From contig CP054936.1 of the NCBI GenBank assembly GCA_013364255.1, positions 1,178,001 to 1,242,000 of the forward strand: DNA of 64,000 bases, given 5' to 3'. Position numbers and translations under genes: made by a program. The DNA comes from Streptomyces seoulensis (GTDB lineage: Bacteria; Actinomycetota; Actinomycetes; Streptomycetales; Streptomycetaceae). Of this stretch, positions 3,449 through 62,660 are shown in pieces (position 1 is the first letter of the stretch; every line of letters begins with the position of its first letter). The notes under the pieces were generated by a model, which saw only the letters and a program-made list of their open reading frames with translations, ran no database searches and was not told the origin of the DNA.

Positions 3449-3450
3449 AC

Positions 3451-4877: not shown

Positions 4878-8900
<4,023 letters not shown>

Positions 8901-13847: not shown

Positions 13848-16800
13848 ATGATCCCGTTGTCGTACGCGCAGCGCCGGCTGTGGTTCCTGACGCAGTTGGA
13901 GGGGCCGAGCGCGACGTACAACATCCCGATGGCCCTGCGGTTGTCGGGTGAGCTGAACCGGGATGCGCTGGAAGACGCGCTGCGGGACGTGGTGGAACGC
14001 CATGAGGTGCTGCGGACGGTGATCGCGGTGGCCGACGGGGAGCCGCACCAGCGGATCCTGCCGGTCGAGGAGACGGGCTTCGCCCTGACCGTCGCCGAGG
14101 TGAGCGCGGCGGACCTGGACGGCGCGGTGGCGGAGGCGGCACGCCACGTCTTCCCGCTGGACTCGGAGATCCCGCTGCGGGCCCGGCTGTTCGCCGTAGG
14201 CCCGGATGAGCACGTGCTGATGCTGGTGGTGCACCACATCGCGGGTGACGGCTGGTCGATGGGACCGCTGGCCCGGGACCTCTCCCTGGCGTACGCGGCG
14301 CGGTGTGCGGGCCGGGAGCCGGCGTGGGCGGAGCTGCCGGTGCAGTACGCGGATTATGTGCTGTGGCAGCAGGAGGTGTTCGGGTCGGAGGATGATCCGG
14401 AGAGTGTGCTGTCGCGGCAGGTGAACTTCTGGCGTGAGGCGCTGGCGGACGCGCCGGAGGAGCTGGCGCTGCCGTATGACCGGACGCGTCCGGCGGTGGC
14501 TTCGCACGAGGGGTATGCGGTCGGGCTTCAGCTGTCGGCGGATGTGCATGCGCGGTTGCGTGAGGTGGCGCGTGAGCGTGGCGTGACGGTGTTCATGGTG
14601 TTGCAGGCGGCGCTGGCGGTGACGTTGTCGCGGGTGGGTGCGGGGACGGACATCCCGATCGGTTCGGCGGTCGCGGGCCGTACCGACGAGGCGCTGGACG
14701 ATCTGGTCGGGTTCTTCGTGAACACGCTGGTGATGCGGACGGATCTGTCGGGTGATCCGACGTTCGGGCAGGTGCTGGAGCGGGTCCGGGAGACGAGTCT
14801 GGCCGCGTTCGCGCACCAGGACGTGCCCTTCGAGCGGCTGGTGGAGGAGCTGGCGCCGGTGCGTTCCCTGGCGCGGCACCCGCTGTTCCAGGTGATGCTG
14901 ACCCTCCAGAACAACGCCCAGGCCAGCGTCGACCTGCCGGGATTGCGGGTCGAAGGGATGGTCACCCAGCAGCTGACGGGCGCTCGGAACACCAAGTTCG
15001 ACCTGGACATCATGGCGACCGAGGTCTTCGACGCGGACGGCGCCCCGGCCGGCCTGACCGGCCGCATCGTTGTGTCCGCTGACGTGTTCGAGGCGGGGGC
15101 GGCTGGTCGGTTCGCGGAGTGGCTGACGCGGGTGGTCGAGGTGGCGGTGGGCGACCCGGGCGTTCGGGTGCGTGGAATCGATGTGGTGGGTTCGGTGGAG
15201 CGGTCGTTGGTGTTGGAGGGGTGGAACGGTGCGGGTGTGGGTGTGGGTGTGGTGGGTGGGTTGGTTCCGGAGCGGATTGCGGAGTGGGCGGTGGTGGATC
15301 CGGGTGCGGTGGCGGTGGTGTGTGAGGGGGTGGAGTTGTCGTATGGGGAGTTGGATGTGTGGGCGAATCGGTTTGCGTGGTTGTTGAGGGGGCGGGGTGT
15401 GGGTGTGGAGTCGGTGGTGGGTTTGTGTTTGCCGCGGGGTGTGGAGATGGTGGCTGCGGTGGTGGGTGTGTGGCGTGCGGGTGGGGCGTATGTGCCGTTG
15501 GATCCGGAGTATCCGGTGGAGCGGTTGGAGTTCATGGTGGGGGACAGTGGGGTTGGGGTTGTGGTGGGTCGGGGTGGTCGGTTGGGGGAGTTGTCGGTGG
15601 CGGGGGTGGGTGTGGTGGATTTGGGTGATGGTGGTGTGGTGGAGGAGTTGGCTGGTTTGTCGGGGGGTGTGGGTCCTGGGGTGGGGGTGTTGCCGGGGTC
15701 TGCGGCGTATGTGGTGTATACGTCGGGTTCGACGGGGCGGCCGAAGGGTGTGGTGGCGACGCATGGGGGGTTGCGGAATTTGGTGGGTGCGTTGGGTCCG
15801 GTGATGGGGGTGGGTCCGGGGGTTGGGGTGTTGCAGTTCGCGTCGTTCAGTTTTGATGCGTCGGTGTTGGATGTGGCGGTGACGTTGGCGTCGGGTGGGA
15901 CGTTGGTGGTGGCGTCGGGGGCGGAGCGGGCGGATGTGTCGTTGTTGGCGGGGTTGGTTCGGGGGCGTGGTGTGGTGTCGGCGAGTGTGGTGCCGTCGTT
16001 GTTGGGGGTGTTGGATCCGGGTGAGTTGGGTGGTTTGTCGACGGTTGTGGTGGGTGCGGAGCCGATTGGTGTGGCGCAGGCGGGTGTGTGGTCGCGGGGT
16101 CGTTCGTTGGTGAATACGTATGGTCCGACTGAGACGACGGTGATGGTGACGGCGGGTGGGGTTGATGGGTCGGGGTCGGTGGTGCCGATGGGTGCTCCGG
16201 TGGTGAATACGCGGGTGTATGTGTTGGATGAGTGGTTGCGTCCGGTGCCGGTGGGTGTGGTGGGTGAGTTGTATGTGGCGGGTGCGCAGGTGACGCGTGG
16301 GTATGTGGGTCGGCCTGGGTTGACGGGTGAGCGGTTTGTGGCGTGTCCGTTCGGTCCGGCCGGTGAGCGGATGTATCGGACGGGGGATCGTGTCCGGTGG
16401 TCGGGTGAGGGTCAGTTGGTGTTCGCGGGGCGTGCGGATGAGCAGGTGAAGATCCGTGGGTTCCGGATCGAGCCGGGTGAGGTGCAGGCGGTGTTGTCGG
16501 CGCATCCGGGGGTGGGTCAGGCGGCGGTCCTGGTGCATGAGGACACGGCCGGCGACAAACGCCTGGTCGCCTACGTCGTTCCGGTCCGCGGCGAAGGCGC
16601 CGCCGTGCCGCAGGATCTCGGTCGCGACGTACGGGAGTTCGTGGCGGGCCGGCTGCCGCAGTACATGGTGCCCTCGGCGGTGATGGTGCTGGAGGCGCTG
16701 CCGCTGACGGTGAACGGCAAGCTGGACCGCAAGGCGCTGCCGGCCCCGGAGTACGTGAGCGGCGGAGGCCGTGGTCCGGCGACGGTGCAGGAGGAGATCC

Positions 16801-36000: not shown

Positions 36001-39000
36001 GATCCTCTGCCAGGCGTTCGCCCAGGTCCTCGGCCTGGACAAGGTCGGGGTCGATGACGACTTCTTCGCGCTCGGCGGTCATTCGCTGCTGGCGACGCGG
36101 TTGGTGAGTCGGGTGCGTGCGGTGCTGGGGGTGGAGGTGGCGCTGCGGACGCTGTTCGAGACGCCCACACCGGCCGGACTCGCGACCAGGCTGGACCAGG
36201 CGGGCGCGGCGCGGCCGGCGCTGGTGGCGGGGGAGCGGCCGCAGCGGGTGCCGCTGTCGTACGCCCAGCGCCGGCTGTGGTTCATCGGGCAGCTGGAGGG
36301 CCCGAGCGCGACGTACAACCTTCCGATCGGGGTGCGGCTGACCGGCCCGCTGGACCGGCGGGCACTGGAGGGCGCCCTGCGGGACGTGCTGGGGCGTCAT
36401 GAGGTGCTGCGGACGGTGTTCGCGGTGGCCGACGGGGAGCCGTACCAGCGGATTCTGCCGGTCGAGGAGACCGGGTTCGCTCTGACCGTCACCGAGGTGA
36501 GCGCGGAGGAGCTGGCCGGGGCGGTGGCCGAGGCGGCGCGGTACGCCTTCGATCTCGCGGAGGAGATCCCTGTCCGGGCGCGGCTGTTCTCGGCTGGTCC
36601 GGATGAGCATGTGCTGATGCTGGTGGTGCACCACATCTCGGGTGACGGCTGGTCGATGGGACCGCTGGCGCGGGACGTGTCCGTGGCGTACGAGGCCAGG
36701 AGCGCGGGCCGGGCGCCCGAGTGGGCGCCGCTGCCGGTGCAGTACGCGGATTACGTGCTGTGGCAGCAGGAGGTGTTCGGGTCGGAGGACGATCCGGAGA
36801 GTGTGCTGTCGCGGCAGGTGGACTTCTGGCGCGAGGCGCTGGCGGACGCCCCGGAGGAGCTGACGCTGCCCTACGACCGGACACGCCCCGCCGTTGCCTC
36901 ACACCGCGGTGGCAGGGTGCGCTTTGTCCTGCCAGCCGACGTCCATGAGGGACTGACGCGGCTGGCGCGCGAGTCCGGTGCGAGTCCGTTCATGGTCGTG
37001 CAGGCGGCGTACGCGGCACTGCTCACGCGGTTGGGCGCGGGAACCGACGTACCGATCGGCTCACCGATCGCCGGCCGGACGGACCAGTCGCTGGACGATC
37101 TGGTCGGCATGTTCGTCAACATGCTGGTCCTGCGCACCGACACGTCAGGGGACCCGACCTTCCGTGAGCTCGTCGCGCGGGTCAAGGAGACCGACCTGGC
37201 CGCGTACGCGCACCAGGACGTGCCCTTCGAGCGACTGGTGGAGGTCCTCAACCCGACCCGCTCCATGGCGCGGCACCCGCTGTTCCAGGTCGTGCTGAGC
37301 TTCCAGAACAACCGCGGGGCCAGGCTTGAGATGGCCGGTCTCGGCGGTGCGCTGGAACACACGCAGTCCACCACGGCCAAGTACGACCTCTCGCTCTACA
37401 TGGAGGAGCGGGAGGAGGGCATGGCCGGCGCGCTGGAATACGCCCTCGATGTGTTCGATGCGGCGACGGCTGAGCGGTTGGTGGGTTGGTTCGGGCGGTT
37501 GTTGGGTGGTTTGGTGGCGGATCCTGATGTGCGGGTGGGGGGTGTGGAGTTCCTTGGTGAGGGTGAGCGGTCGTTGGTGTTGGGGTGGGCTGGTGGGGTG
37601 GGTGAGGGGTTGGTGGGTCGGTCGTCGGTGGTGGAGTTGTTTGAGGCGCAGGTGGTGCGTGATCCGGGTGCGGTGGCGGTGGTGTGTGAGGGGCGGTCGT
37701 TGTCGTATGGGGAGTTGAATGCGTGGGCGAATCGTCTGGCGCGGTCGTTGGTGGCTCGGGGTGCGGGGCCTGAGCGGTTGGTGGCGTTGGTGTTGCCGCG
37801 GTCGGTGGAGTTGGTGGTGGCGGTGTTGGCGGTGTTGAAGTCGGGTGCGGCGTATGTGCCGGTGGATCCGGAGTATCCGGCGGAGCGGGTGGCGTTGGTG
37901 TTGGAGGAGGCGCGTCCGGTGGTGACGTTGGGTGTGGGTGAGGTGGATGTGGAGGAGGGGGTGTTCGGTGAGGGTGATTTGGGGGTGGGGGTGTTGCCGG
38001 AGTCTGCGGCGTATGTGATTTATACGTCGGGTTCGACGGGGCGGCCGAAGGGTGTGGTGGTGCCGCATCAGAATGTGGTGCGGTTGTTGGGGTCGACGCG
38101 GGAGTGGTTCGGGTTCGGTCCGGATGATGTGTGGACGTTGTTCCATTCGTATGCGTTCGATTTCTCGGTGTGGGAGTTGTGGGGTGCGTTGTTGCATGGT
38201 GGGCGGTTGGTGGTGGTGCCGTTCGGGGTGAGTCGGGAGCCGCGGGAGTTCGCGCGGTTGTTGGCGGAGGAGGGGGTGACGGTGCTGAATCAGACGCCGT
38301 CGGCGTTCTATCAGTTGATGGGGGTGGAGCGGGACGACTGGGTGTTGCGGTGTGTGGTGTTCGGTGGTGAGGCGTTGGATGTGGGTCGTCTGGAGGGGTG
38401 GTTCGAGCGGCATGGTGATGGGGGGCCGCGGTTGGTGAACATGTACGGGATCACGGAGACGACGGTGCATGTCTCGTACTTCCCGCTGGAGGGTGCGGAT
38501 GCGGGCGAGAGTGCTGGTGTGGTGGGTGTGGGTCTTCCGGATCTGCGGGTGTTCGTGCTGGATGAGTGGTTGCGTCCGGTGCCGGTGGGTGTTGCGGGTG
38601 AGGTGTATGTGGCGGGTGCGGGTCTGGCGCGGGGGTATGTGCGGCGTGCGGGGTTGACGTCGGAGCGGTTCGTGGCGTGTCCGTTCGGTCCGGCCGGTGA
38701 GCGGATGTACCGGACGGGGGACCGCGCGCACTGGAGGGGTGATGGCCGGCTGGTGTATGGGGGGCGTGGGGATGAGCAGGTGCAGTTGCGTGGGTTCCGG
38801 GTGGAGTTGGGTGAGGTGGGGGCGGTGTTGGCGCGTCATGGTGGGGTGCGGGATGTGGCGGTGGTGGTGCGGGATGAGCGGTTGGTGGCGTATGTGGTGG
38901 GTGAGGTGTCGGGGGCGGAGCTGCGGGCGTTCGCTGCGGGGTGGCTGCCGGAGTACATGGTGCCGTCGGCTGTGGTGGTGCTGGATGTGCTGCCGCTGAC

Positions 39001-42000
39001 GGTGAACGGCAAGCTGGACCGTAAGGCGCTGCCGGCCCCCGTGTTCACGGCCGGCGGGGGTCGTGGTCCGGCTACGGTGCAGGAGGAGATTCTGTGCCAG
39101 GTGTTCGCGCAGGTGCTGGGTCTGCCTGCGGTGGGTGTGGACGACGACTTCTTCGCGCTGGGCGGGCATTCGCTGCTGGCGGTGTCGTTGGTGGAGCAGT
39201 TGCGTGCTCGGGGTGTTGGTGTCTCGGTGCGGGCGTTGTTCCAGACGGCGACGCCGGCGGGTCTGGCGGCGGCCGCTGGGCCGGCCGAGGTGGTGGTGCC
39301 GGAGAACCGGATCCCGGACGGCGCCGAGCGGATCACCCCGGACATGCTGCCGCTGGTGGACTTGGACGAGTCCGAGCTGACGCGGATCGTCGAGCAGATC
39401 CCGGGCGGCGCGGCCAACATCGCTGACGTCTACCCGCTCGCTCCCCTTCAGGAAGGCATCCTCTTCCACCACCTGTTGCAGGCGGATGGTGGTGTGGACG
39501 CGTATGTGGTGCCGCGGGTGCTGCGGTTCGACTCGCGGGAGCGGCTGGACGCGTTCCTCGGGGCGTTGCAGCGGGTGGTGGACCGGCATGACATCTACCG
39601 CACCGCGATCCTGTGGGAGCAGTTGCGCGAGCCGGTCCAGGTCGTCGTGCGCCAGGCCGTACTGCCGGTCACACAGGTGGAGTTGAGCGCTACCGAACAG
39701 CGCGAAGCGGCACAGCAGTTGGTCGCCGCAGCCGGTCCGAGCATGGACACCGGTCGTGCGCCGTTGATCGATGTGCACACGGCCGCTGAGCCGGGTGAGG
39801 GCGGTGGCTGGCTGGCGCTGCTGCGGATGCATCACCTGGTCCAGGACCACACCACGCAGGACGTGCTGCTGGCCGAGATGGGCGCGTTCATGTCGGGGCG
39901 GGAGGACTCGCTGCCGGAGCCGCTGCCGTTCCGCAACTTCGTGGCGCAGGCGCGGCTGGGCGTGACGCGCGAGGAGCACGAGCGGTACTTCGCCGGCCTG
40001 CTGGCCGATGTGGAGGAGACGACCGCGCCCTACGGCCTGGTGGACGTGCACGGTGACGGCACCGGTGTGGTCCGCTCCCATCTGCGGGTGGAGGACGGGA
40101 TCGGCCGACGGGTGCGGGACGTCGCCCGGTCATTGGGCGTGAGCCCGGCCACCGTCTTCCATCTGGCGTGGGCGCGGGTGCTGGCGACGGTCAGCGGCCG
40201 CGACGACGTCGTGTTCGGCACGGTGCTGTTCGGGCGGATGAACGCCGGAACGGGCGCCGACCGGGTGCCGGGCCTGTTCATCAACACGCTGCCGGTCCGA
40301 GTCCGTGTCGATGCGGTGGGTGTCGGCCGGGCGCTGGAGGCGGTGCGTGATCAGCTGGCGGAGCTGCTGGTGCACGAGCACGCGCCGCTGACGCTGGCGC
40401 AGCAGGCCAGTGGTGTGCCGAACGGCAGTCCGCTGTTCACCTCGCTGTTCAACTACCGGCACGGCGATCGCCGCCAGGCCGAATCGCGGCCGGAGTCGGG
40501 CACCGAGTCCCGGGGCATCGCCACGGTCGCGATGCGTGAAGTGACGAACTATCCGGTGACCGTGGCGGTCGATGACCTGGAGACGCGGTTCGGGCTGACC
40601 GTGGACGCGGTGGGTCCGGTCGACGGGGAAGCGCTCTGCCGGCTGCTGCACACCTGCCTCGACCACCTGGTGGCCACGCTGGAGGACGACCCCGCCGGCC
40701 TCCTGTCGACGGTGGACGTCCTCGACACCGCCGAACAGAAGCGACTGCTTGAGGAGTGGAACGACACCACCACGGAACTGCCCCGGCTCTCGGCGTCCGA
40801 GATGTTCCAGGCCCAGGTGGCGCGCACTCCGGATGCCGTGGCGGTGGTGTACGGCGCCACCGAGCTGTCGTACACGGAGCTGGACGCCAAGGCCAATCAG
40901 CTAGCGCACCACTTGCGCGGCCTCGGGGTCGGCGCCGAGTCGGTGGTCGGCGTGTCCCTGCCGCGTGGAGTGGACCTGGTCGTCGCACTGCTCGCGGTGC
41001 TGAAGACCGGCGCGGCATACGTGCCGCTGGATCCGCAATACCCAGCGGAACGGCTGGAGTTCATGCTCGCCGACAGCGGCGCGCAGGTCGTCGTCGGCCG
41101 CGGCGATGCGGCCACCGAGTTGTCGGCGTCGGCCGTGCACGTGGTGCGGCTGGACGACGCACAGGTGGCCGGTGAACTGGCCGCGGCGCCGGTCACCGCT
41201 CCCGAAGTGGCCTTCGAGGCCGACGGGCTGGCCTACATCATCTACACGTCTGGTTCGACGGGACGCCCCAAGGGTGTGGCCGTGTCGCATGGCGGCGTCG
41301 CCAGCCTCGTCGCGGCCCAGACGGAACGATTCGCGGTGGATGCGGCGAGCCGCATGCTGCAGTTCGCGTCGGTGAGCTTCGACGCGGCGGTGTCCGAGGT
41401 CCTGGTGACGCTGTCGAGCGGCGCCCGACTCGTGCTGTCCGACGCGCAGGAGCTCCTGCCGGGCGCCGGGCTGGTCGACGTCGTGGCGCGGCACCAGGTG
41501 ACGCACGTGACGCTGCCGCCGGCCGTGCTGGCCGTGCTGGCGCCCGAAGATCTGGCCTCGGTGTCGACACTGGTGTCAGCGGGCGAGGCACTCGGCGGTG
41601 ACCTGGTCGGCCGCTGGTCGCCCGGCCGCCGGTTCATCAACGCCTACGGGCCAACGGAGACCACCGTCTGCGCCACGATGTCCGCCCCGCTCGCGCCGGG
41701 TGACAGCGCCGGTATCGGCTCTCCGATCGTCAACACGCGGGTCTATGTGCTGGACGGTGCGCTGCGTCCGGCGCCGGTGGGGGTCGCGGGCGAGCTGTAT
41801 GTGGCGGGTGCGGGTCTGGCGCGCGGGTACGTGGGGCGCTCGGCTCTGACGGGCGAACGGTTCGTGGCGTCCCCGTTCGGTGGTTCCGGCGAGCGCATGT
41901 ATCGGACGGGGGATGTGGCGCGGTGGTCGGCGGAGGGCCGGCTGGAGTACTTGGGCCGTGCGGATGAGCAGGTGAAGATCCGTGGGTTCCGGATCGAGCC

Positions 42001-45000
42001 GGGTGAAGTGCAGGCGGCGGTGGCCGCGCATCCCGGAGTGGACCAGGCGGCGGTCGTCGTCCGTGAGGACGTGGCCGGGGACAAGCGTCTGGTCGCTTAC
42101 GTGGTCGGCGAGGCGGGCGAGTCCGAGCTGCGTGACTTCGTGGCCGAAAGGCTGCCGCAGTACATGGTGCCGTCGGCGGTGGTGGTGCTGGAGGCGCTGC
42201 CGTTGACGGTGAACGGCAAGCTGGACCGCAGGGCGCTGCCCGCGCCGGCCCACACGTCGGACGCTGCCCGCCTGCCGGTCACGGTGCAGGAGGAGATCCT
42301 GTGCCAGGCGTTCGCCCAGGTCCTCGGTCGGGAGCGGGTCGGGGTCGACGACGACTTCTTCGCGCTGGGTGGGCATTCGCTGTTGGCGACGCGGTTGGTG
42401 AGTCGGGTGCGTGCGGTGCTGGGGGTGGAGGTGGCGCTGCGGACGTTGTTCGAGGCGTCCACGCCGGCCGGTCTCGCCGCACGGCTGGAGCAGGCGGGTG
42501 CGGCGCGTCCGGCGCTGGTGGCGGGGGAGCGGCCGCAGCCGGTGCCGTTGTCGTATGCCCAGCGTCGGCTGTGGTTCCTGACGCAGTTGGAGGGGCCGAG
42601 CGCGACGTACAACATTCCGACGGCTCTGCGGTTGTCGGGTGGGTTGGACCGGGGTGCGCTGGAGGGTGCGCTGCGGGATGTGGTGGGGCGGCATGAGGTG
42701 CTGCGGACGGTGTTCGCGGTGGCCGACGGTGAGCCGTACCAGCGGATTCTGCCGGTCGAGGAGGCCGGGTTCGCGCTGTCCGTCGCCGAGGTGGGCGCGG
42801 AGGAGCTGGCCGGGGCGGTGGCGGAGGCGGCGCGGTATGCCTTCGATCTGGCGCAGGAGATCCCTGTCCGGGCGCGGTTGTTGTCGGTGGGTCCGGATGA
42901 GCATGTGCTGATGCTGGTGGTGCACCACATCGCGGGTGACGGCTGGTCGATGGGTCCGCTGGCGCGGGATGTGTCGGCGGCGTACGCGGCGCGGGTCGAG
43001 GGCCGGGAGCCGGTGTGGGCGCCGTTGCCGGTGCAGTACGCGGATTATGTGCTGTGGCAGCAGGAGGTGTTCGGGTCGGAGGACGATCCGGAGAGTGTGC
43101 TGTCGCGGCAGGTGGGGTTCTGGCGTGAGGCGTTGGAGGACGCGCCGGAGGAGCTGGCGCTGCCGTATGACCGCACGCGTCCCGCGGTGGCTTCGCACGA
43201 GGGGTATGCGGTCGGGCTTCAGCTGTCGGCCGACGTGCATGCGCGGTTGCGTGAGGTGGCGCGTGAGCGTGGCGTGACGGTGTTCATGGTGTTGCAGGCG
43301 GCGCTCGCGGTGACGTTGTCGCGGGTGGGTGCGGGCACGGACATCCCGATCGGTTCGGCGGTCGCGGGCCGCACCGACGAGGCACTGGACGACCTGGTCG
43401 GCTTCTTCGTGAACACGCTGGTGATGCGGACGGACCTTTCGGGTGATCCGACGTTCGGGCAGGTGCTGGAGCGGGTCCGGGAGACGAGTCTCGCCGCGTT
43501 CGCGCACCAGGACGTGCCCTTCGAGCGGCTGGTGGAGGAACTGGCGCCGGTGCGCTCCCTGGCGCGGCACCCGCTGTTCCAGGTCATGCTGACCCTCCAG
43601 AACAACGCCCAGGCCAGCGTCGACCTGCCGGGACTGCGCGCGGGCGCAGTACCGGCCCCGACGGCCGGCCCGGCCGGCACGCCCCGGCCGGTGACGGCCA
43701 AGTTCGACCTGGACGTCACCGCCACCGAGGTCTTCGGCGCCGACGGCACGCCTGCTGGTCTGCGGGGTGTGGTGACTGTGGCTGCTGATGTGTTCGAGGC
43801 GGGGGCGGCTGGTCGGTTCGCGGAGTGGCTGGCGCGGGTGGTCGAGGCGGTGGTGGAGGCTCCGGACGTTCGGATGAGTGCGGTGGAGGTACTGAGCCTG
43901 GATGAGCGGTCGTTGGTGTTGGGTTGGGCTGGTGGGGTTGGTGAGGGGTTGGTGGGTCGGTCGTCGGTGGTGGAGTTGTTTGAGGCGCAGGTGGTGCGTG
44001 ATCCGGGTGCGGTGGCGGTGGTGTGTGAGGGGCGGTCGTTGTCGTATGGGGAGTTGAATGCGTGGGCGAATCGTCTGGCGCGGTCGTTGGTGGCTCGGGG
44101 TGCGGGGCCTGAGCGGTTGGTGGCGTTGGTGTTGCCGCGGTCGGTGGAGTTGGTGGTGGCGGTGTTGGCGGTGTTGAAGTCGGGTGCGGCGTATGTGCCG
44201 GTGGATCCGGAGTATCCGGCGGATCGGGTGGCGTTGGTGTTGGAGGAGGCGCGTCCGGTGGTGACGTTGGGTGTGGGTGAGGTGGATGTGGAGGAGGGGT
44301 TGTTCGGTGAGGGTGATTTGGGGGTGGGGGTGTTGCCGGAGTCCGCGGCGTATGTGATTTATACGTCGGGTTCGACGGGGCGGCCGAAGGGTGTGGTGGT
44401 GCCGCATCAGAATGTGGTGCGGTTGTTGGGGTCGACGCGGGAGTGGTTCGGGTTCGGTCCGGATGATGTGTGGACGTTGTTCCATTCGTATGCGTTCGAT
44501 TTCTCGGTGTGGGAGTTGTGGGGTGCGTTGTTGCATGGTGGGCGGTTGGTGGTGGTGCCGTTCGGGGTGAGTCGGGAGCCGCGGGAGTTCGCGCGGTTGT
44601 TGGCGGAGGAGGGGGTGACGGTGCTGAATCAGACGCCGTCGGCGTTCTATCAGTTGATGGGGGTGGAGCGGGACGACTGGGTGTTGCGGTGTGTGGTGTT
44701 CGGTGGTGAGGCGTTGGATGTGGGTCGTCTGGAGGGGTGGTTCGAGCGGCACGGTGATGCGGGGCCGCGGTTGGTGAACATGTACGGGATCACGGAGACG
44801 ACGGTGCATGTCTCGTACTTCCCGCTGGAGGGTGCGGATGCGGGCGAGAGTGCTGGTGTGGTGGGTGTGGGTCTTCCGGATCTGCGGGTGTTCGTGCTGG
44901 ATGAGTGGTTGCGTCCGGTGCCGGTGGGTGTTGCGGGTGAGGTGTATGTGGCGGGTGCGGGTCTGGCGCGGGGGTATGTGCGGCGTGCGGGGTTGACGTC

Positions 45001-48000
45001 GGAGCGGTTCGTGGCGTGTCCGTTCGGTGCGGCCGGTGAGCGGATGTACCGGACGGGGGACCGCGCGCACTGGAGGGCCGATGGCCGGCTGGCGTTCGCC
45101 GGCCGTGCGGATGAGCAGGTGCAGTTGCGTGGGTTCCGGGTCGAGCCGGGCGAGATCGAGACGGTGGTGGCCGCGCATCCCCAGGTGGAGCGCGCGGCGG
45201 TGGTCGTGCGGGAGGACAATCCCGGCGATGTCCGCCTGGTCGCCTACCTCGTGCCGACCGACGATGACCGTCCCGAGGCCGAACTCGCCGCCGAGGTGCG
45301 GGCGTTCGCGGCCGACCGGCTGCCGGAGTACATGGTGCCCTCGGCCCTGGTGGTATTGGATGTGCTGCCGCTGACGGTGAACGGCAAGCTGGACCGCAAG
45401 GCGCTGCCGGCCCCCGTGTTCACAGCCGGCGGCGGTCGTGGTCCGGCGACCGTGCAGGAGGAGATCCTGTGCCAGGTGTTCGCGCAGGTGCTGGGTCTGC
45501 CCGCGGTCGGTGTGGACGACGACTTCTTCGCGCTCGGCGGCCACTCGCTGCTCGCGGTGTCGCTGGTGGAGCAGTTGCGTGCTCGGGGCGTCGCTGTCTC
45601 GGTGCGGGCGTTGTTCCAGACGCCGACGCCGGCGGGTCTGGCCGCGGTGGCGGCTCCGGACACGGTCGAGGTGCCGGAGAACCGGATCCCGGACGGCGCC
45701 GAGCGGATCACTCCGGACATGCTGCCGCTGGTGGATCTGTCGGAGGAGGAGGTCGGGCGGATCGTCGCGGCCGTCGAGGGGGGCGCGGCGAACATCGCCG
45801 ACGTGTATCCCCTGGCGCCGTTGCAGGAGGGTCTGTTCTTCCACCACCTGTTGCAGGCGGACGGCGGCGTGGACGCGTATGTGGTGCCGCGGGTGCTGCG
45901 GTTCGACTCGCGGGAGCGGCTGGACGCGTTCCTCGGGGCGTTGCAGCGGGTGGTGGACCGGCACGACATCTACCGCACCGCGATCCTGTGGGAGCAGCTG
46001 CGCGAGCCGGTCCAGGTCGTCGTACGCCGGGCCGTACTGCCGGTCACGCCCGTGGAGCTGACCGCTGACGGATCCGCTGCCGTGGAGCAGCTGATCGCGA
46101 CGGCGGGCTCGGGGATGGACATCGGCCGTGCGCCGTTGATCGATGTGCACACGGCTGTGGAGCCGGGTGAGGACGGTGGCTGGCTGGCGCTGCTGCGGAT
46201 GCATCACCTGGTCCAGGACCACACCACGCAGGACGTGCTGCTGGCCGAGATGGGTGCGTTCCTGTCCGGGCGGGAGGACTCACTGCCGGAGCCGCTGCCG
46301 TTCCGCAACTTCGTGGCGCAGGCGCGGCTGGGCGTGACGCGCGAGGAGCACGAGCGGTACTTCGCCGGCCTGCTGGCCGATGTGGAGGAGACGACCGCGC
46401 CGTACGGTCTGCTGGACGTGCACGGTGACGGCACGGGTGTGGTCCGCTCCCATCTGGGCGTGGATGACGAGGTGGGGCGTCGGGTGCGCGAGGTGGCGCG
46501 GTCGCTGGGCGTGAGTCCGGCGTCGGTGTTCCATCTGGCGTGGGCGCGGGTGCTGGCGACGGTCAGCGGCCGTGACGACGTCGTGTTCGGGACGGTGCTG
46601 TTCGGGCGGATGAACGCCGGTGCGGGCGCCGACCGGGTGCCGGGCCTGTTCATCAACACGCTGCCGGTTAGGGTGCGGGTCGATGCGGTGGGTGTCGGCC
46701 GGGCGCTGGAGGGGGTGCGTGATCAGCTGGCGGAGCTGCTGGTGCACGAGCACGCGCCGCTGACCCTGGCGCAGCAGGCCAGTGGTGTGCCGAACGGCAG
46801 TCCGCTGTTCACCTCGCTGTTCAACTACCGGCACGGCAAGTTGCGGCAGCCGGAACCGCGGCCGGAGGCGGGCGCGGAGTCCCGCGGCATCATCACGGTG
46901 GCGATGCGCGAGGCGACGAACTATCCGGTGACCGTGGCGGTCGATGACCTGGAGACGCGGTTCGGGCTGACCGTGGACGCGGTGGGTCCGGTCGACGGGG
47001 AAGCGCTCTGCCGGCTGCTGCACACCTGCCTCGACCACCTGGTGGCCACGCTGGAGGACGACCCCGCCGGCCTCCTGTCGACGGTGGACGTCCTCGACAC
47101 CACCGAACAGAACCGACTCCTTGAGGAGTGGAACGACACCACCACGGAACTGCCGGACCAGGGTGTTCACGCCCTGGTCGCCGGACAGGCGCGGCTGCGC
47201 CCGGACGCCGTGGCGCTGGAGTTCGGTGACGTGCGGCTCTCCTACCGCGAACTGAACGCCCGGGCCAACCGGATCGCGCATGCGCTCATGGCGGCCGGTG
47301 TGAGCAGGGGGTCGCTGGTGGGCGTGTGCCTTGAGCGCGGCCCCGAAGCGGTAGCCGCACTGTTGGGCGTGTGGAAGGCCGGCGCGGGCTATGTGCCGCT
47401 GGACACCGACTACCCCTCCGCCCGACTGGCGTCCATGATGCGCGACGCGGACGTACAGGTCGTCGTCACGCAGGGCGGACTGGGCGAGCTGCTGCCGGAC
47501 TTCGGCGGCGTGCTCGTACCGGTCGAGAGCGTGGATGATTCCCGCTCGGCCGAGGACCCGGCAGTGGAGGTCGCGCCGGATGACGCGGCCTACGTGATGT
47601 TCACCTCCGGATCGGCGGGGCTGCCCAAGGGCGTGATGGTGGAACACCGCGCCGTGGCACGACTGGTGTGGGGGCAGCGGTACGCCGAGTTCAGCGAGCG
47701 CAATGTGCACCTTCTGCTGGCGCCGCTGGCGTTCGACGCCTCCACGTTCGAGTTGTGGGGTGCGCTGGTGCACGGCGGCCGCCTGGTGATCGCACCCCCG
47801 GGGACAGTCGGCCTGCCGGAACTGCGGTCGCTGATCTCGGGCAAGGGCATCAGCGACCTGTGGCTGACCGCCGCACTGTTCAACGCGGTGGTCGATGAGG
47901 ACCCGGGCATCCTGACGGGACTGGAACGGGTGCTGGTCGGCGGCGAGGCCCTGTCGGTGCGGCACGTACGGGACGCCCAGACGGCACTGCCCGGACTCCA

Positions 48001-51000
48001 GGTGCTGAACGGGTACGGACCGACCGAGACCACCACGTTCGCCTGCACGTACGCCGTCCCGCGGATGGCCGCAGACGCGCAGTCCGTGCCGATCGGCTCA
48101 CCCATCGCGAACACGCGGGTGTATGTGCTGGACGGTGCGTTGCGTCCGGTGCCGGTGGGCGTCGCGGGTGAGCTGTATGTGGCGGGTGCCGGTCTGGCGC
48201 GTGGGTACGTGGGGCGCTCGGCTCTGACGGGTGAGCGGTTCGTGGCGTGCCCGTTCGGTGGTGCGGGTGAGCGGATGTATCGGACGGGGGATGTGGCGCG
48301 GTGGTCGGTGGAAGGCCGGCTGGAGTACTTGGGGCGTGCGGATGAGCAGGTGAAGATCCGTGGGTTCCGGATCGAGCCGGGTGAGGTCGAGGCGGTTCTG
48401 TCGGCGCATCCGGGGGTGGGTCAGGCGGCGGTCGTCGTGCGTGAGGACGTGGCCGGGGACAAGCGTCTGGTCGCCTATGTGGTCGGTGATGCGGGTGCGG
48501 CGGAGCTGCGTGGCTTTGTGGCCGAGAGGCTGCCGCAGTACATGGTGCCGTCGGCGGTGGTGGTGCTGGAGGTGCTGCCGTTGACGGTGAACGGGAAGCT
48601 GGATCGTAGGGCGCTGCCGGCTCCGGAGTACGTGAGTGGTGGGGGGCGTGGTCCGGCGACGGTGCAGGAGGAGATCCTGTGCCAGGCGTTCGCTCAGGTT
48701 CTCGGTCGGGAGCGGGTCGGGGTCGATGACGACTTCTTCGCGCTGGGTGGGCATTCGCTGTTGGCGACGCGGTTGGTGAGTCGGGTGCGTGCGGTGCTGG
48801 GGGTGGAGGTGGCGCTGCGGACGTTGTTCGAGGCGTCGACGCCGGCCGGTCTCGCCGCGCGGTTGGGGCAGGCGGGTGCGGCGCGTCCGGCGCTGGTGGC
48901 GGGGGAGCGGCCGCAGCGGGTGCCGCTGTCGTACGCCCAGCGCCGACTGTGGTTCATCGGGCAGCTGGAAGGACCGAGCGCGACGTACAACATCCCTCTC
49001 GGGATGCGGCTGACCGGCGCATTGGACCGGCAGGCGCTGGAAGCGGCCCTGCGGGATGTGATCGGGCGGCATGAGGTGCTGCGGACGGTGTTCGCGGTGG
49101 CCGACGGCGAGCCGTACCAGCGGATCCTGCCGGTCGAGGAGACCGGATTCGCGCTGTCCGTCACCGACGTGAGCGCGGACGACCTGGGCGAGGCGGTCGC
49201 GGAAGCGGCCGGCTATGCCTTCGACCTCGCCGAGGAGATCCCTGTCCAGGCGCGGCTGTTCACGGTCGGTCCGGATGAGCATGTGCTGACGGTGGTGGTG
49301 CATCACATCGCGAGTGATGGGTGGTCGTCTGCTCCGTTCGAGCGGGATCTGACGTCCGCGTATGCGGCGCGGGTGGAGGGGCGGGTACCGGTGTGGGCGC
49401 CGTTGCCGGTGCAGTACGCGGATTACGCTTTGTGGCAGCGGGAGTTGCTGGGTGAGGAGGGCGATCCGGGCAGTGTGCTGTCGCGGCAGGTGGGGTTCTG
49501 GCGTGAGGCGTTGGCGGGGGCTCCGGAGGAGCTGGCGTTGCCGTATGACCGGTCGCGTCCGGCGGTGGCCTCGCACGAGGGGCACGCGGTACCGGTGGAT
49601 GTGCCGGCCGCGGTGCACGCGCGGTTGCGTGAGGTGGCGCGTGAGCGTGGCGTGACGGTGTTCATGGTGTTGCAGGCGGCGTTGGCGGTGACGTTGTCGC
49701 GGTTGGGTGCGGGGACGGACATCCCGATCGGTTCGGCGATCGCGGGCCGTACGGATGAGGCGTTGGACGAGTTGGTGGGCTGCTTCGTCAACTCGCTGGT
49801 GGTGCGGACGGATCTGTCGGGTGATCCGTCGTTCGGGCAGGTGCTGGAGCGGGTCCGGGAGACGAGTCTTGCCGCGTTCGGGCATCAGGACGTGCCCTTC
49901 GAGCGGCTGGTGGAGGAGCTGGCGCCGTCGCGGTCGGCGGCGCGGCATCCGTTGTTCCAGGTCATTTTGACCATGCAGGACACGGTGTCGGTGGCGGGCG
50001 TGGGCGGTGCGGCCGAGACGGTGTCGGGTCTGCGGGGCAGCGCGCTGCCGTTGGGCCGGGTCGGGGCGAAGTTCGATGTGTCCGTGCTGGTGGGCGAGCG
50101 GTTCGGCGCGGATGGCGCGCCGGCGGGGATCGGCGGGGTGGTGACGGGGGCTGCTGACCTGTTCGACCCGGCGACGGTGGCCCGGCTGGCCGAGGGTCTG
50201 TCGCTGCTGCTGGCGCAGGTGGTCGGGGACCCGTCGACCCGGGTGAGCGCGGCCGATGTGCTGGGGGCGGAGGAGCGGGATCGGGTGGTGGTGGAGTGGA
50301 ACGCCACGGAGGTGCCGGTGGCGGCTTCCACGGTGTTGGGGCTGTTCGAGGAGCGGGTGGTGCGGTCGCCGGGTGCGGTGGCGGTGGTCGACGGGGACGG
50401 GGCGGTGTCGTTCGGGGAGCTGGATACGCGGGCGAATCGGCTGGCGCATTATCTGCGGGCGCAGGGTGTGGGTGCGGAGTCGGTGGTGGGGTTGTGTCTG
50501 CCGCGGGGTGTGGAGATGGTGGTGGGGATGCTCGCGGTGTGGAAGGCGGGCGCGGGCTATGTGCCGGTGGACGCGGGACTGCCCGCGGAGCGGGTGGCGT
50601 TGGTCCTGCGCGACAGCGGCGCGGTGCTTACCCTGACCACGGAGGAGATCCTGGACGATCTCCCGGCGGGACGGCACCGTCTCGTCGCGGTGGACGATCC
50701 GCTGACCGCGATGCAGCTCGCGGCCGCCTCTAAGGCGGCGCCGGAGGTGGAGATCCGGCCGGGGCAGGTGGCGTATGTGGTGTTCACGTCGGGTTCGACC
50801 GGGCGGCCGAAGGGTGTGGCCGTCACGCATGGCGGGCTGGCGAACTATGTGGCGTCGGTGCCGGAGCGGGTCGGGTTCGATGGCGGTGGCCGGTTTGCTG
50901 TGTTGCAGGGTCAGGCGACGGACCTGGCGAACACGACAGTGTTCGCGAGCCTGACGGGCGGGGGCGAGCTGCACTTCCTGGACGAGGAACTGGTCACGGA

Positions 51001-54000
51001 CCCGGCCGCCGTAGCCCAGTACCTGACCGAGCACCGGATTGACTGCCTCAAGGCGGTGCCGTCGCATGTGGCGGCGCTGGGTGCCGAGTCGGTGGGGTCG
51101 GTGCGGTCTCTGGTTCTGGGTGGTGAGGCGGCTTCGTCTGGCCTGGTCGTGGAGTTGCTGGACGCGGTCGGTGAGGGTTCGGCGGTGTTCAATCATTACG
51201 GGCCGACGGAGACGACGGTCGGTGTGGCGACGGTGCGTCTGTCGCGGGAGTTGGTGGCTGGTGGGGTGGTGCCGGTGGGTGCTCCGGTGGCGAATACGCG
51301 GGTGTATGTGCTGGATGAGTGGTTGCGTCCGGTGCCGGTGGGTGTGGTGGGGGAGCTGTATGTGGCGGGTGCGCAGGTGGCGCGTGGTTATGTGGGTCGG
51401 GCTGGGCTGACGGGTGAGCGGTTCGTTGCGTGTCCGTTCGGTGGTGTGGGTGAGCGGATGTATCGGACGGGGGACCGTGCCCGGTGGTCGGGTGAGGGCA
51501 ACCTCGTCTTCGCGGGGCGTGCGGATGAGCAGGTGAAGATCCGTGGGTTCCGGGTGGAGCCGGGTGAGGTGCAGGCGGTCGTGGCCGCGCATCCGCTGGC
51601 CGAGGCGGCTGCGGTGGTCGCCCGGGAGGATGTGCCCGGGGATGTCCGCCTGGTCGCCTACGTCGTCACCGATGAGGTGGACGACGAGGTGGAGGCGGCC
51701 GAGTTCGCGGCGGCCGTGCGGGAGTTCGTGGCGGGTCGGTTGCCGGAGTACATGGTGCCGTCCGCCGTGGTCGTGCTGCCGGAGCTGCCGTTGACCAGTA
51801 ATGGGAAGCTGGATCGTAGGGGCTTGCCGGCGCCTGATTATGGTGCGGCTGCGACGGCGGACAGTGGGCGTGGTCCGGCGACGGTGCAGGAGGAGATTCT
51901 GTGCCAGGCGTTCGCGCAGGTGCTGGGTCTGTCGGCGGTCGGGGTGGACGACGACTTCTTCACGCTGGGCGGTCATTCGCTGCTGGCGGTGGCCCTGGTG
52001 GAGCAGTTGCGGGGTCAGGGTGTGTCGGTGTCGGTGCGGGCGTTGTTCCAGACGCCGACGCCGGCGGGTCTGGCCGCGGTGGCGGCTCCGGACGCGGTCG
52101 AGGTGCCGGAGAACCGGATACCTGAGGGCGCCGAGCACCTCACTGCGCAGATGCTGCCGTTGGTGGACCTGGACGAGGCCGAGGTGGCGCACATCGTCGG
52201 ACGGATCCCGGGCGGCGCGGCCAACATCGCCGACGTCTACCCGCTCGCCCCCCTTCAGGAAGGCATCCTCTTCCACCACCTGTTGCAGGCGGACGGTGGC
52301 GCGGACGTGTACGCGGCGCCGCGGGTCATCCGCTTCGACTCGCGGGAGCGGCTGGACGCGTTCCTCGGAGCGTTGCAGCGCGTGGTGGACCGGCACGACA
52401 TCTACCGCACCGCGATCCTCTGGAAGGACCTGCGCGAGCCGGTCCAGGTCGTGGCCCGCCGGGCCGTACTGCCGGTGACGCCGGTGGAGCTGACCGCTGA
52501 CGGACCCGACGCGGTGCGGCAGTTGATCGCGGCGGCCGGTCCGAGCATGGACACCGGTCGTGCGCCGCTGATCGATGTGCACACCGCCGCGGAGCCCGGC
52601 GAGGGCGGCGGCTGGCTGGCGCTGCTGCGGATGCATCACCTCATCCAGGACCACACCACGCAGGACGTGCTGCTGGCCGAGATGGGCGCGTTCATGTCCG
52701 GGCGGGAGGACTCGCTGCCGGAGCCGCTGCCGTTCCGCAACTTCGTGGCGCAGGCGCGGCTGGGCGTGGCCCGTGAGGAGCACGAGCGGTACTTCGCCGG
52801 CCTGCTGGGCGACGTGGAGGAGACCACCGCGCCGTACGGTCTGCTCGACGTGCACGGTGACGGCAGCGGTGTGACGCGCTCCCACCAGGACGTCGAGGAC
52901 GAGGTGGGGCAGCGGGTGCGCGAGGTGGCGCGGTCGCTGGGCGTGAGTCCGGCCACCGTGTTCCACCTGGCCTGGGCGCGGGTCCTGGCGACGGTCAGCG
53001 GCCGTGACGACGTGGTGTTCGGCACGGTGCTGTTCGGGCGGATGAACGCCGGAACGGGCGCCGACCGGGTGCCGGGCCTGTTCCTGAACACCCTGCCCGT
53101 GCGGGTCCGTGTCGGCGCCACCGGCGTCGGACAGGCGCTGGAAGGGCTGCGCAACCAGCTGGCGGAACTCCTGGTGCACGAGCACGCGCCGCTGACCCTG
53201 GCGCAACAGGTCAGTGGGGTGCCCGGCGGCAGTCCGCTGTTCACCTCGATCTTCAACTTCCGGCACAGCCAGCGTCCGGACGCGGAGTCCCGCAAGGAGG
53301 CGGACCGCACCGCGCCCAGGAGCATCCAGATGGTGTTCACCCGGGAGGCCACCAACTACCCGGTCGCCGTTTCGGTGGACGATCTGGGCGCCGGGTTCGG
53401 GCTGACCGTGGACGCGGTGAACTCGGTGGACGGGCAGGCGCTGTGCCGGCTGCTGCACACCTGCCTGGACAGCCTGGTGACCGCGCTGGAGGACAGCCCG
53501 GAGCGCGGGCTCGCCGCGGTGACGGTCCTTGACGAGGCCGAGCAGCGGCGCATGCTGACGGAGTGGAGTGGCACCGACACATCCGTCGGGGCGGCCACGG
53601 TGCCGGAGCTGTTCGCGGCCCAACTGGCGCGTGATCCCGAAGCGGTGGCGGTCGTCTCGGACGGTACGGAGATCTCGTACGCGGAACTGGACGCCCGTGC
53701 CAACCGTCTCGCCCGCTACCTGACCGGTCTGGGCATCGGCCCCGAGGCGTGCGTCGGCGTGTGCCTCGAACGCGGCGCCGGCCTGCAGACGGCGCTGCTG
53801 GCGATCCTGAAGGCCGGTGGAGCGTATGTGCCGCTGGATCCCGACCACCCCGCCGAACGGATCGCCTACGTGGTGCGGGACGCCGGGATGGAGGTCGTGC
53901 TGACCTCCGCGGCGCTGGCCGGGATCCTGCCCGGCGACGTGCGCTCGCTGGTGCTGGACGACCCGGCCGTGGCAGCCGAGTTGGCCGCCCTCGACGGCTC

Positions 54001-56158
54001 GGCCACGTCGTGCGCCGAGCTGCGGCCCGAGCACCCCGCGTACGTGATCTACACCTCCGGATCGACCGGCCGGCCGAAGGGTGTGCTGGTCTCGCACGTG
54101 GGCGTGGCGAGTCTGGTGGCGGGACACGTCCAGCGTCTGGCCGTGGGGCCGGGGGCACGGGTGGCGCAGTTCGCGTCGGCCGCCTTCGACACCTTCGGCT
54201 GGGAGTGGATGATGGCCCTGCTGTCGGGAGCGGCCCTGGTGACGGTGCCGGCCGAACGGCGGCTGGGCACCGCGCTGCCGGAGTTCCTGACCGAGACCCG
54301 GGTCACGCACGCGACGCTGCCGCCGGCCGTGCTGGCCACCCTCGACGAGCGGTCGATCAGTGCGGACACCGTGCTGGTGGTGGCGGGCGAGGCGTGCCCG
54401 CCCGACGTGATGGCGCGCTGGGCGCGCGGGCGTGCCATGTTCAACTCGTACGGTCCGACGGAGACCACGGTGGACGCGACGCTGTGGCGGTGCGACGAGG
54501 AGGCCGCGACCGTCGCGATCGGTTCCCCGGTGGTGAACACCCGGGTGTACGTGCTGGACGAGCGGATGGCGCCGGTCCCGGTGGGCGTCGCGGGTGAGCT
54601 GTACGTGGCCGGCGCCGGGCTGGCACGCGGCTATGTGGGGCGCGCGGGGCTCACCGCGGAACGCTTCGTGGCCAATCCGTTCGCCGGCGGCGGGGCGCGG
54701 CTGTACCGCACCGGGGACCGGGCGCGGTGGACGCCGGACGGCCGACTCGTGTTCGCGGGCCGTACGGACGACCAGGTCAAGGTCCGCGGCTTCAGGATCG
54801 AGCCGGGCGAGATCGAGAAGGTGCTCGACCGGCATCCGCGACTGAGCCAGGTGGCCGTGGTCGTGCACGAGGACCCCCAGGGCGGCAAGCGTCTGGTCGC
54901 CTACGTCGTCCCCGACGCCGGCGACGCCGATCCGGGCGCGCTGGCCGGGTCGGTGCGGGAGTTCGCGGCCGAGTGGCTGCCGAACTACATGGTGCCGTCC
55001 TCGGTGACCGTCCTGGACGCCCTGCCGCTGACGGTGAACGGCAAGGTGGACCGCAGGGCCCTGCCCGCCCCGGACTTCGCGGCCGCGGCGGGCGGCGCCG
55101 GGGACCCGACGGCGGGCCGGGGCGCCGCAGGTGTGCTCGAAGCGGCGGTGTGCGAGACGTTCGCCGAGGTCCTGGGCGTGCCGGCGGTCGGGGTGGACGA
55201 CGACTTCTTCGCGCTCGGCGGCCACTCGCTGATGGCGGTCACCCTGGTGGAGCGGTTGCGGGGCAGGGGCGTCACCGTGTCGCTGCGCACCCTGATCACC
55301 AACCCGACGCCGACGCGGCTGATGCAGACGTTCAGCCTGACGTCGGTGCAGGACGCCCTCGGCGGAGTGCTGACGATCCGGTCCGGCGGAACCGAGCCGG
55401 CGTTCTTCTTCATCCACCCCGCGGGCGGACTGAGCTGGTGCTACATGCCGTTCGCCCGCTTCATCCCCGAGGAGTACCCGCTGTACGGCCTCCAGGCCCA
55501 GGGGCTCGAGGGCTCCGGGGAGCTGTCGGGCTCGGTCGCCGACATGGCCGCCGAGTACGTGCAGCGGATACGCGCGGTGCAGGCGTCGGGCCCCTACCAC
55601 CTGGTGGGCTGGTCCTTCGGTGGAACTCCCGCACACGAGGTCGCGGTGCGGCTGGAGGCCGAGGGCGAGGAGGTGTCGCTGATCCTCATGGACGCGTACC
55701 CGCCGATCCCGGCGCCCGACGCCGCGGCTGCCCGGAACGAAGGAGCCGACGGGCCGCGCGCGGCCGGCTCCGAGCGGCGTGCCGACGGCGCGCGCACCGC
55801 ACCGGCCGACGGCCCGGCGCGCCTGGCCCAGCGCGTGCGCGCCGAACTCGGCCCGGTGCTCGGTGGCGTCGACAACGACGAAGTCGCCCTGCTGGTCCGG
55901 GTGTTCGACAACAACGCGACGCTGAGGGACCGGCACGCCTACGGCACCTTCGGCGGGGACACGCTGATCCTCGTCGCGGAAGAAGGAAAACGGGCGGACT
56001 TCTCGCCCGAGGCGCTGTGGGAGCCGCACCTCACCCGGCGGGCCGCGACCGTCCGCATTCCCTGCGGGCACTCGGACATGGTGAGGCCCGAGATGCTGGG
56101 CCTGGCCTGGGACGCCGTCTCGCAGTGGCTGGCCGCACGGTCGGAGCGGGAGGAGTGA
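33053..56158 (+). CDS. Non-ribosomal peptide synthetase 2 (modules 7-13 plus thioesterase)
   Basis: A 7701-aa seven-module synthetase ending in a thioesterase: C-A-T, C-A-T, dual-C-A-T, C-A-T, dual-C-A-T, C-A-T, dual-C-A-T-TE. Phosphopantetheine serines are at 1011, 2040, 3109, 4165, 5235, 6309 and 7392. Codes: DVWHVSLVDK (Ser7), DFWNVGMVHK (Thr8), DASTVAAVCK (Tyr or beta-hydroxy-Tyr 9), DFWNVGMVHK (Thr10), DAFWLGGTFK (Val11), DLTKVGHVGK (Asp12) and DTWTVASVDK (aromatic 13, uncertain). The TE (about 7440-7701) has nucleophile Ser7521 in GWSFGGTP, Asp in LMDAYPP and His in [10 protein letters not shown]. The protein starts directly inside a C domain. AGGAG precedes the ATG. A strong hairpin follows 35 nt after the stop. 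The TE should release the 13-mer by hydrolysis or by cyclization onto a Thr or Ser side chain. Confidence 0.97.
33056..36193 (+). other. NRPS module 7: C-A(Ser)-T
   Basis: The C domain that receives the hexapeptide from NRPS1 has HHIAWDA in place of HHxxxDG; both His and the Asp are kept. Code DVWHVSLVDK reads Ser. The A domain is near-identical in DNA to that of module 6. Confidence 0.85.
34409..35663 (+). repeat. Ser A-domain cassette, copy 2 (module 7)
   Basis: Partner of 31,221-32,475; very few changes, one being Ala to Thr near 35,267. Confidence 0.85.
36248..39280 (+). other. NRPS module 8: C-A(Thr)-T
   Basis: Ordinary C domain (HHISGDG) and Thr code DFWNVGMVHK. The A-T part is near-identical to module 3. 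The T domain is pre-dual type, predicting D-allo-Thr. Confidence 0.85.
37448..39048 (+). repeat. Thr A-domain cassette, copy 2 (module 8)
   Basis: Partner of 21,450-23,050, with a few substitutions (for example Phe-His-Ser against Phe-Gln-Ser near 38,145). Confidence 0.85.
39296..42487 (+). other. NRPS module 9: dual E/C-A(Tyr or beta-hydroxy-Tyr)-T
   Basis: Dual-type C domain. Code DASTVAAVCK is the code reported for Tyr/beta-hydroxytyrosine modules of glycopeptide synthetases. It is the most attractive site for the CmlA-type hydroxylase. This A domain has the GC-rich wobble bases of ordinary Streptomyces genes. Confidence 0.72.
42542..45655 (+). other. NRPS module 10: C-A(Thr)-T, hybrid module
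   Basis: The C domain and linker match modules 1 and 2, but the A domain is the Thr type of modules 3 and 8 up to about 45,090 and then changes again ([19 protein letters not shown]). Code DFWNVGMVHK. The T domain is pre-dual type. Confidence 0.85.
43914..45090 (+). repeat. Thr A-domain cassette, copy 3 (module 10, shorter)
   Basis: Shares DNA with modules 3 and 8 only from the codons for [11 protein letters not shown] to about ADGRL; outside these points module 10 follows other parents. Confidence 0.85.
45671..48865 (+). other. NRPS module 11: dual E/C-A(Val)-T
   Basis: Dual-type C domain. Code DAFWLGGTFK reads Val (reference DAFWIGGTFK). The P-loop motif is [10 protein letters not shown] rather than TSGSTG, a common variant. 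The T domain is the ordinary type, so Val should stay L. Confidence 0.8.
48920..52087 (+). other. NRPS module 12: C-A(Asp)-T
   Basis: Near-copy of module 5 from the C-domain His motif (HHIASDG) through the T domain, with a diverged patch of about 60 nt near 51,000 and a one-codon insertion near 51,180. Code DLTKVGHVGK reads Asp; the pre-dual T domain predicts D-Asp. Confidence 0.82.
49268..52030 (+). repeat. C-A(Asp)-T cassette, copy 2 (module 12)
   Basis: Partner of 26,943-29,700 (offset 22,325 at the left end), with one extra codon near 51,180. Confidence 0.8.
52103..55336 (+). other. NRPS module 13: dual E/C-A(aromatic?)-T
   Basis: Dual-type C domain with MHHLIQDH. Code DTWTVASVDK shares W239, T278 and A301 with Phe/Trp-type pockets but has Thr236 and Asp331, so Trp, Phe, a substituted Phe or even Dpg remain possible. 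The T domain is a distinct type that precedes the thioesterase. Confidence 0.5.
55370..56155 (+). other. Terminal type I thioesterase domain
   Basis: About residues 7440-7701 of NRPS2. FFFIHPAGG forms the oxyanion region, Ser7521 in GWSFGG the nucleophile, Asp in LMDAYPP and His in CGHSDM the rest of the triad. An Ala/Arg-rich insert (about 55,735-55,815) forms the lid region. It releases the finished peptide; whether linear or cyclic cannot be told. Confidence 0.88.
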
Positions 56159-62644: not shown

Positions 62645-62660
62645 AGGTGGGCTCCTTCTT

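Follow-up and report, generated by a model that had tools for sequence, protein, structure and literature searches.

What is made by the giant NRPS genes P1 and P2 of Streptomyces seoulensis, and do they form a complete assembly line? The window (a 64,000-nucleotide stretch of contig CP054936.1) contains both genes, which the initial annotation had read as a complete line for a lipidated 13-residue peptide with Dpg at its N terminus. The DNA around the window was extended by 20 kb leftward and 40 kb rightward, and genes were called in the extensions by a simple codon-based script. At a probability of roughly 0.75, the locus holds most of an NRPS cluster whose 18 modules build an N-acylated peptide, with a third protein, P3, acting before P1 and P2. 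Features are collected in Table 1.

Table 1. Features of the S. seoulensis locus. Positions above 64,000 are window-extended coordinates.
Feature	Coordinates	Strand	Evidence or remark
CmlA-type diiron beta-hydroxylase	1865..3448	+	PF18456 6.4e-83; best PDB matches 8a90, CmlA 4jo0
HpgT-like aminotransferase, predicted final step to Dpg	3436..4758	+	PF00155 2.5e-30; adjoins dpgA in many of 80 loci
DpgA, 3,5-dihydroxyphenylacetyl-CoA synthase	4878..6029	+	NF042429 651 bits, cut-off 425
DpgB	6053..6751	+	NF042431 327 bits, cut-off 140
DpgC dioxygenase	6748..8097	+	NF042432 740 bits, cut-off 530
DpgD	8094..8900	+	NF042430 454 bits, cut-off 400
Alpha/beta hydrolase	9167..9970	+	PF12697 7e-22; recurs in relatives
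HPPD/HmaS-like protein, two of three iron ligands lost	10119..11051	+	Ligand alignment with relatives
StrR-like regulator	12035..12952	-	Weak HTH match; homologues near dpgA in relatives
NRPS P1, modules 6-11 (Dpg-Dpg-Thr-Asn-Asp-Ser, predicted)	13848..33053	+	6401 aa; C types L L L dual L dual
NRPS P2, modules 12-18 (Ser-Thr-Tyr-Thr-Val-Asp-aromatic, predicted) and TE	33053..56158	+	7701 aa; C types L L dual L dual L dual
ABC transporter, probable exporter	56607..58580	-	PF00664, PF00005 (scan of ORF 56607-58610)
Second StrR-like regulator	60034..61023	+	Weak HTH matches; homologues near dpgA in relatives
FabF-like ketosynthase, proposed for acyl chain	61173..62411	-	PF00109, PF02801
Acyl carrier protein	62408..62644	-	PF00550 3.9e-15
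FabH-like ketosynthase III	62661..63512	-	PF08545, PF08541
MbtH	64031-64249		Gene call past right edge
Type II TE	64400-65116	-	Gene call past right edge
FkbM methyltransferase	65214-65981	-	Gene call past right edge
Stand-alone A-T protein	66327-68630		Thr code DFWNIGMVH
NRPS P3	70755-86513	same as P2	5252 aa, five modules, TE-less

P1 and P2 are intact ORFs, and base 33053 is common to the stop of P1 and the start of P2. P1 comprises six C-A-T modules; P2 comprises seven and a terminal TE (PF00975, 1.6e-24), and the GWSFG motif of the TE and the carrier serines are present. Pfam scans of the protein halves gave 13 Condensation, 13 carrier and 14 AMP-binding stretches and 1 thioesterase. The fourteenth AMP-binding stretch is one A domain divided by the halving, and 13 A domains were counted both by motif scan and by a module-derived profile. 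This organisation is far beyond chance, and agrees with the two-gene, 13-module line at 13848-56158 described earlier.

Modules were aligned, the nine variable code positions were extracted with the same profile, and substrates were named by comparison with Stachelhaus codes. The P1 codes are DALSVGTVM, DALSVGTVM, DFWNVGMVH, DLTKVGEVG, DLTKVGHVG and DVWHVSLVD, and those of P2 are DVWHVSLVD, DFWNVGMVH, DASTVAAVC, DFWNVGMVH, DAFWLGGTF, DLTKVGHVG and DTWTVASVD. By that comparison these are presumed to specify X-X-Thr-Asn-Asp-Ser and Ser-Thr-Tyr-Thr-Val-Asp-aromatic, which reproduces the 13 residues initially read by eye. The last code points to an aromatic residue, without firm assignment. C domains were typed by motifs and alignment. 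Those of window modules 4, 6, 9, 11 and 13 are of the dual C/E type, and the carrier domains directly before them belong to a separate subtype; D residues are therefore predicted at 3, 5, 8, 10 and 12 (window numbering), as had been proposed. E domains were rejected as the origin of these residues, since none is present: Pfam found no additional Condensation-type stretch for an epimerase in the halves of P1 or P2. The two A domains with code DALSVGTVM (15297-16736 and 18504-19916) are 96% alike, and two Asp modules (26526-29492 and 48851-51820) have long identical stretches; both observations suggest recent duplication or gene conversion.

The identity of X, at modules 6 and 7 of the predicted line, was approached through the supply of the residue and the distribution of the code. 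DpgA, DpgB, DpgC and DpgD all score above curated NCBIfam cut-offs, and are accompanied by an HpgT-like aminotransferase. A DpgA search found 23 of 150 same-genus genomes to be dpgA-positive, S. seoulensis included. At a threshold of E <= 1e-138 the module-6 A domain matched about 100 times, in 20 of these genomes, and codes were read in 30 of the matches, at least one per genome. The pattern DALS[VLI]GTV[MI], set after the codes were seen, was read in 14 genomes including our own, and all 14 are dpgA-positive against 23/150 overall (hypergeometric 4.6e-14), an association that holds per genome and not per cluster. A further dpgA-positive genome carries DALSRGSVI and stands outside the 14, and eight of the 23 dpgA-positive genomes gave no module-6 match at this threshold. 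Five dpgA-negative genomes with related A domains carry DALSVGAVI (two), DAMCVGTVI (two) or DLLSEGAID. Together, the DpgA-D set and the association of code with dpgA support Dpg as the predicted substrate of modules 6 and 7. The product would then contain twice a rare residue that is otherwise familiar from vancomycin-type antibiotics.

The main competing assignment is that X is Hpg or another aromatic amino acid, with Dpg used elsewhere. It would accommodate the codes DALSVGAVI and DAMCVGTVI in four genomes lacking dpgA, and the difference of the S. seoulensis code from DPYHGGTLCK, the code of glycopeptide Dpg modules; we nevertheless regard it as unlikely, given the 14 dpgA-positive genomes out of 14 and two further results. 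Firstly, no other Dpg-like code was found in the 17 readable modules of the line (module 1 is unreadable and module 18 unassigned). Secondly, the HPPD/HmaS-like protein has Gly, Arg and Glu in place of the iron ligands His, His and Glu, as does its S. indiaensis homologue (L018). The three ligands are kept in 34 of 37 aligned homologues from dpgA loci, an alignment from which relatives with a stop in the reading frame were left out; the other exceptions are L019 (one His lost) and L093 (altered). The only HPPD over cut-off in the S. seoulensis genome is 3 Mb away. The 10119-11051 protein is thus probably no active 4-hydroxymandelate synthase, and it was rejected as a sign of Hpg on account of the two lost ligands. 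No Hpg-type code occurs in the 17 readable modules. In three of the five dpgA-negative genomes with related codes (among L189, L190 and L204-L206) a TE 47-49% like that of S. seoulensis was seen, and these could be Dpg-free relatives.

P3 starts 14.6 kb beyond P2, with the MbtH, type II TE and A-T protein genes among those intervening. Module 1 of P3 combines a C domain with an A domain that lacks motifs A3, A4 and A5 as well as its C-terminal portion; the carrier motif is intact. Asp codes were read in modules 2-4 and a Tyr code in module 5, whose C domain is dual. The best structure matches of the first P3 C domain are starter C domains, namely RzmA 7c1k (1.1e-74; structure identified from an excerpt of PMC7804268) and CDA synthetase I 5du9/4jn3 (~1e-51). 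ObiF1 (1.3e-48) and EntF (2.7e-45) are further matches. The matches of the first P1 C domain are to ordinary elongation C domains, with none to RzmA or CDA C1 at E <= 1e-10. P3 would therefore precede P1, and P1 was ruled out as the initiating protein. The C-terminal tails of P3 and P1 are alike (KARPALR.MR), and variants of this tail occur on non-terminal NRPSs with a readable C-terminus in Actinomadura sp. DC4, A. madurae, S. coacervatus, Streptomyces sp. Ag109_O5-1 and S. indiaensis. Both P1 and P2 begin with MIPLS[YF]AQRRLWF. Both DC4 and A. madurae carry, one after another on a single strand, genes resembling P3 (its C-terminal part), P1 and P2; the order of C types in P1 and P2 is equal to that of S. 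seoulensis in 13 of 13 modules. The order P3-P1-P2 in S. seoulensis, where P3 stands 14.6 kb off in a separate operon and the docking termini are generic, would accordingly rest on strong comparative support.

A complete 13-module line of P1 and P2, with the acyl chain on its first module, an N-terminal Dpg in a lipidated 13-mer and P3 belonging to a second, neighbouring cluster, is improbable, and slightly more so than an X other than Dpg. P1 and P2 do overlap, P2 does carry a TE, and P3 is a distant, separate transcription unit; however, P1 begins with an elongation-type C domain, P3 has a starter-type C domain and no TE, and the three genes are contiguous in both Actinomadura strains. A window edge can make an 18-module line look like a complete one of 13 modules. 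Of the product first proposed, the Dpg supply stands, as does, in all likelihood, an acylated Thr/Ser/Asp-rich peptide. The 13-residue length is superseded by the five earlier modules of P3, and the lipidated N terminus is lost to Dpg, which P3 moves to positions 6-7 of about 18.

Because the first A domain of P3 is degenerate, Thr1 is probably loaded in trans by the A-T protein at 66327-68630. In S. indiaensis the first A domain is likewise degenerate (72% over 2-874), and an A-T protein with Thr code DFWSIGMVH, closely similar with a longer N-terminal region, is encoded just upstream on the same contig. In ramoplanin and enduracidin an inactive A domain is complemented by a stand-alone A-T protein, which in ramoplanin needs an N-terminal extension (excerpt of PMC8949500). 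A DC4 starter module lies on another contig (C88) and is presumably the start of the DC4 P3; its A domain is intact and has an aromatic code, and similar starter modules occur in other relatives. Residue 1 would thus vary across the family, and its trans loading seems to belong to one branch. A short acyl chain is likely, since FabH, ACP and FabF (61173-63512) resemble the CDA set, which makes hexanoyl-ACP according to passages of PMC9136287 and PMC7804268. The matches of the first P3 C domain to ObiF1 and EntF mean that the cap could be aryl and not fatty. The first C domains of those two proteins accept aryl groups.

The dual C domain of P3 module 5 (83187-84707, window-extended) has HQTVRDH instead of HHxxxD[GH]. 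S. indiaensis, DC4 and A. madurae have HQ at apparently the same place; in S. coacervatus and Kitasatospora humi HQ occurs elsewhere. The variant may change epimerisation or condensation at Asp4-Tyr5, and a D-configured Asp4 is doubtful. Decay into a non-producing cluster is very improbable: the degenerate first A domain, the degenerate HmaS homologue and the HQ variant would fit it, but the P1, P2 and P3 ORFs are all open, the degenerate A domain is found in S. indiaensis too, next to a stand-alone A-T protein, HQ is seen again in Actinomadura, and the Dpg enzymes, TE motif and carrier serines are as described above.

The following pathway is proposed. DpgA-D and the HpgT-like aminotransferase would produce Dpg, and FabH, ACP and FabF, together with the primary FAS, would supply a short acyl chain. 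The P3 starter-type C domain would acylate residue 1, Thr1 probably being supplied by the A-T protein. P3 would then add Asp2-Asp3-Asp4-Tyr5, P1 would add Dpg6-Dpg7-D-Thr8-Asn9-D-Asp10-Ser11, and P2 would add Ser12-D-Thr13-Tyr14-D-Thr15-Val16-D-Asp17-aromatic18. Release by the P2 TE would follow, and may close a macrolactone on Thr1. A residue bound to a carrier, perhaps Tyr, is probably beta-hydroxylated by the CmlA homologue. The predicted product is acyl-Thr-Asp-Asp-Asp-Tyr-Dpg-Dpg-Thr-Asn-Asp-Ser-Ser-Thr-Tyr-Thr-Val-Asp-aromatic. Modules, codes, C types, tails and gene content are read directly from the DNA; substrates, trans loading, the nature of the acyl group, the hydroxylation site and cyclisation are deduced from them.

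The CmlA homologue has an HGHQDH motif at residue 301, and CmlA-type hydroxylases occur in 21 of 80 dpgA loci (flanks up to 10 kb). A family III CoA-transferase (124-1395) was rejected as a cluster gene: it was not found in the 80 loci with flanks of <=10 kb, and in S. indiaensis no NRPS precedes CmlA on its contig. The left cluster end was therefore placed at the CmlA homologue, which is its likely position. The regulators at 12035..12952 and 60034..61023 are presumed to belong to the StrR family. An ABC transporter is located near the TE end in DC4 also. Past P3 lie an FtsX-type ABC transporter, a two-component system and then a third StrR-like gene, with possible roles in self-protection or regulation.

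The line is most likely of a known enzymatic kind for lipopeptides, with an undescribed predicted product. No product is known to us to have this residue order, and none was recognised in the open-access literature searched, in keeping with the first reading of the locus. Printed A-domain code strings in that literature gave no match, the glycopeptide code DPYHGGTLCK included, a result to which little weight is given. The A-deficient module of ramoplanin and enduracidin is internal, at position 8, whereas here it is the first. Both systems share with S. seoulensis a stand-alone Thr A-T protein (in S. seoulensis with code DFWNIGMVH) beside such a module, trans loading being a prediction here. 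Ramoplanin, enduracidin and chersinamycin are made by lipopeptide lines of similar size, with 17 modules, and the four enduracidin NRPSs include EndA with 2, EndB with 6 and EndC with 8 modules (excerpt of PMC8616955). StrR-type regulators are a further likeness to this family (excerpt of PMC10886168). The S. seoulensis line differs in its lack of an Hpg-type code in the 17 readable modules, its degenerate HmaS homologue, its residue order and D/L pattern, and its protein split of 5+6+7.

The comparison extends to four further systems. Feglymycin is a linear Hpg/Dpg-rich 13-mer without an acyl group; the Dpg pathway and Dpg modules are shared, but here Dpg is predicted at 2 of 18 positions, Hpg-type codes are lacking where readable, and a starter-type C domain is present. 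Glycopeptide antibiotics share DpgA-D and a Tyr code, that of their beta-hydroxytyrosine modules. They differ in having 7 modules against 18; the line here has a starter-type C domain, and its last module is C-A-T-TE with no extra C-like (X) stretch. No cytochrome P450 (Oxy) was matched among the proteins scanned, which cover part of the flanking genes. As in other starter-C lipopeptide NRPSs, the initial P3 module has a starter condensation domain, from which acylation is predicted. CDA has a similar FabH/ACP/FabF set and starter C domain (excerpts of PMC7804268 and PMC9136287), but another module order and length. A 73% antiSMASH match reported in 'Streptomyces ortus' is perhaps a feglymycin-like automatic label of a large Dpg cluster (excerpt of PMC10272871).

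The nearest DpgA is that of S. indiaensis (91%), where the gene order is as in S. seoulensis: CmlA, HpgT, DpgA-D, hydrolase, HPPD-like, StrR-like and the start of P1 at the contig end. The remaining line is split over small contigs. Its last-module code is DNSTEGTVD, and its product probably differs at position 18. With the last module and TE as query, identities were 73% in S. indiaensis, 72% in S. pseudovenezuelae GGS1, 64% in Kitasatospora CB01950, 63% in DC4 and 58% in A. madurae. A TE at 60% identity is rare, occurring in 2 of 150 same-genus genomes, our own included. Across P1 and P2, DC4 has the same residue by code at 4 of 13 positions (Dpg6, Asp10, Val16 and Asp17), and A. madurae keeps Dpg6 and Asp17. 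Several A. madurae codes are unreadable, and A-domain fragments of relatives without a readable code were left unassigned. S. coacervatus has a related line with another protein split.

We lean slightly towards an undescribed family of N-acyl lipopeptides with 18 residues, probably cyclic and spread over Streptomyces and Actinomadura, in which the D/L plan, early Dpg (position 6) and Asp17 would be fixed and most side chains swapped; one branch would have a starter module without adenylation and take Thr1 from a trans A-T protein. If so, the predictions cover the residue order, the starter chemistry and most stereocentres of a large lipopeptide undescribed in the literature found, and a set of relatives is available to help identify it. 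With the D/L pattern of the backbone fixed and the residues exchanged, one could test directly how backbone stereochemistry relates to target. An unusually large related line was observed in Ag109_O5-1, with about 33 modules in five proteins (9+6+10+4+4), a starter C domain, five DALSVGTVM modules and a TE.
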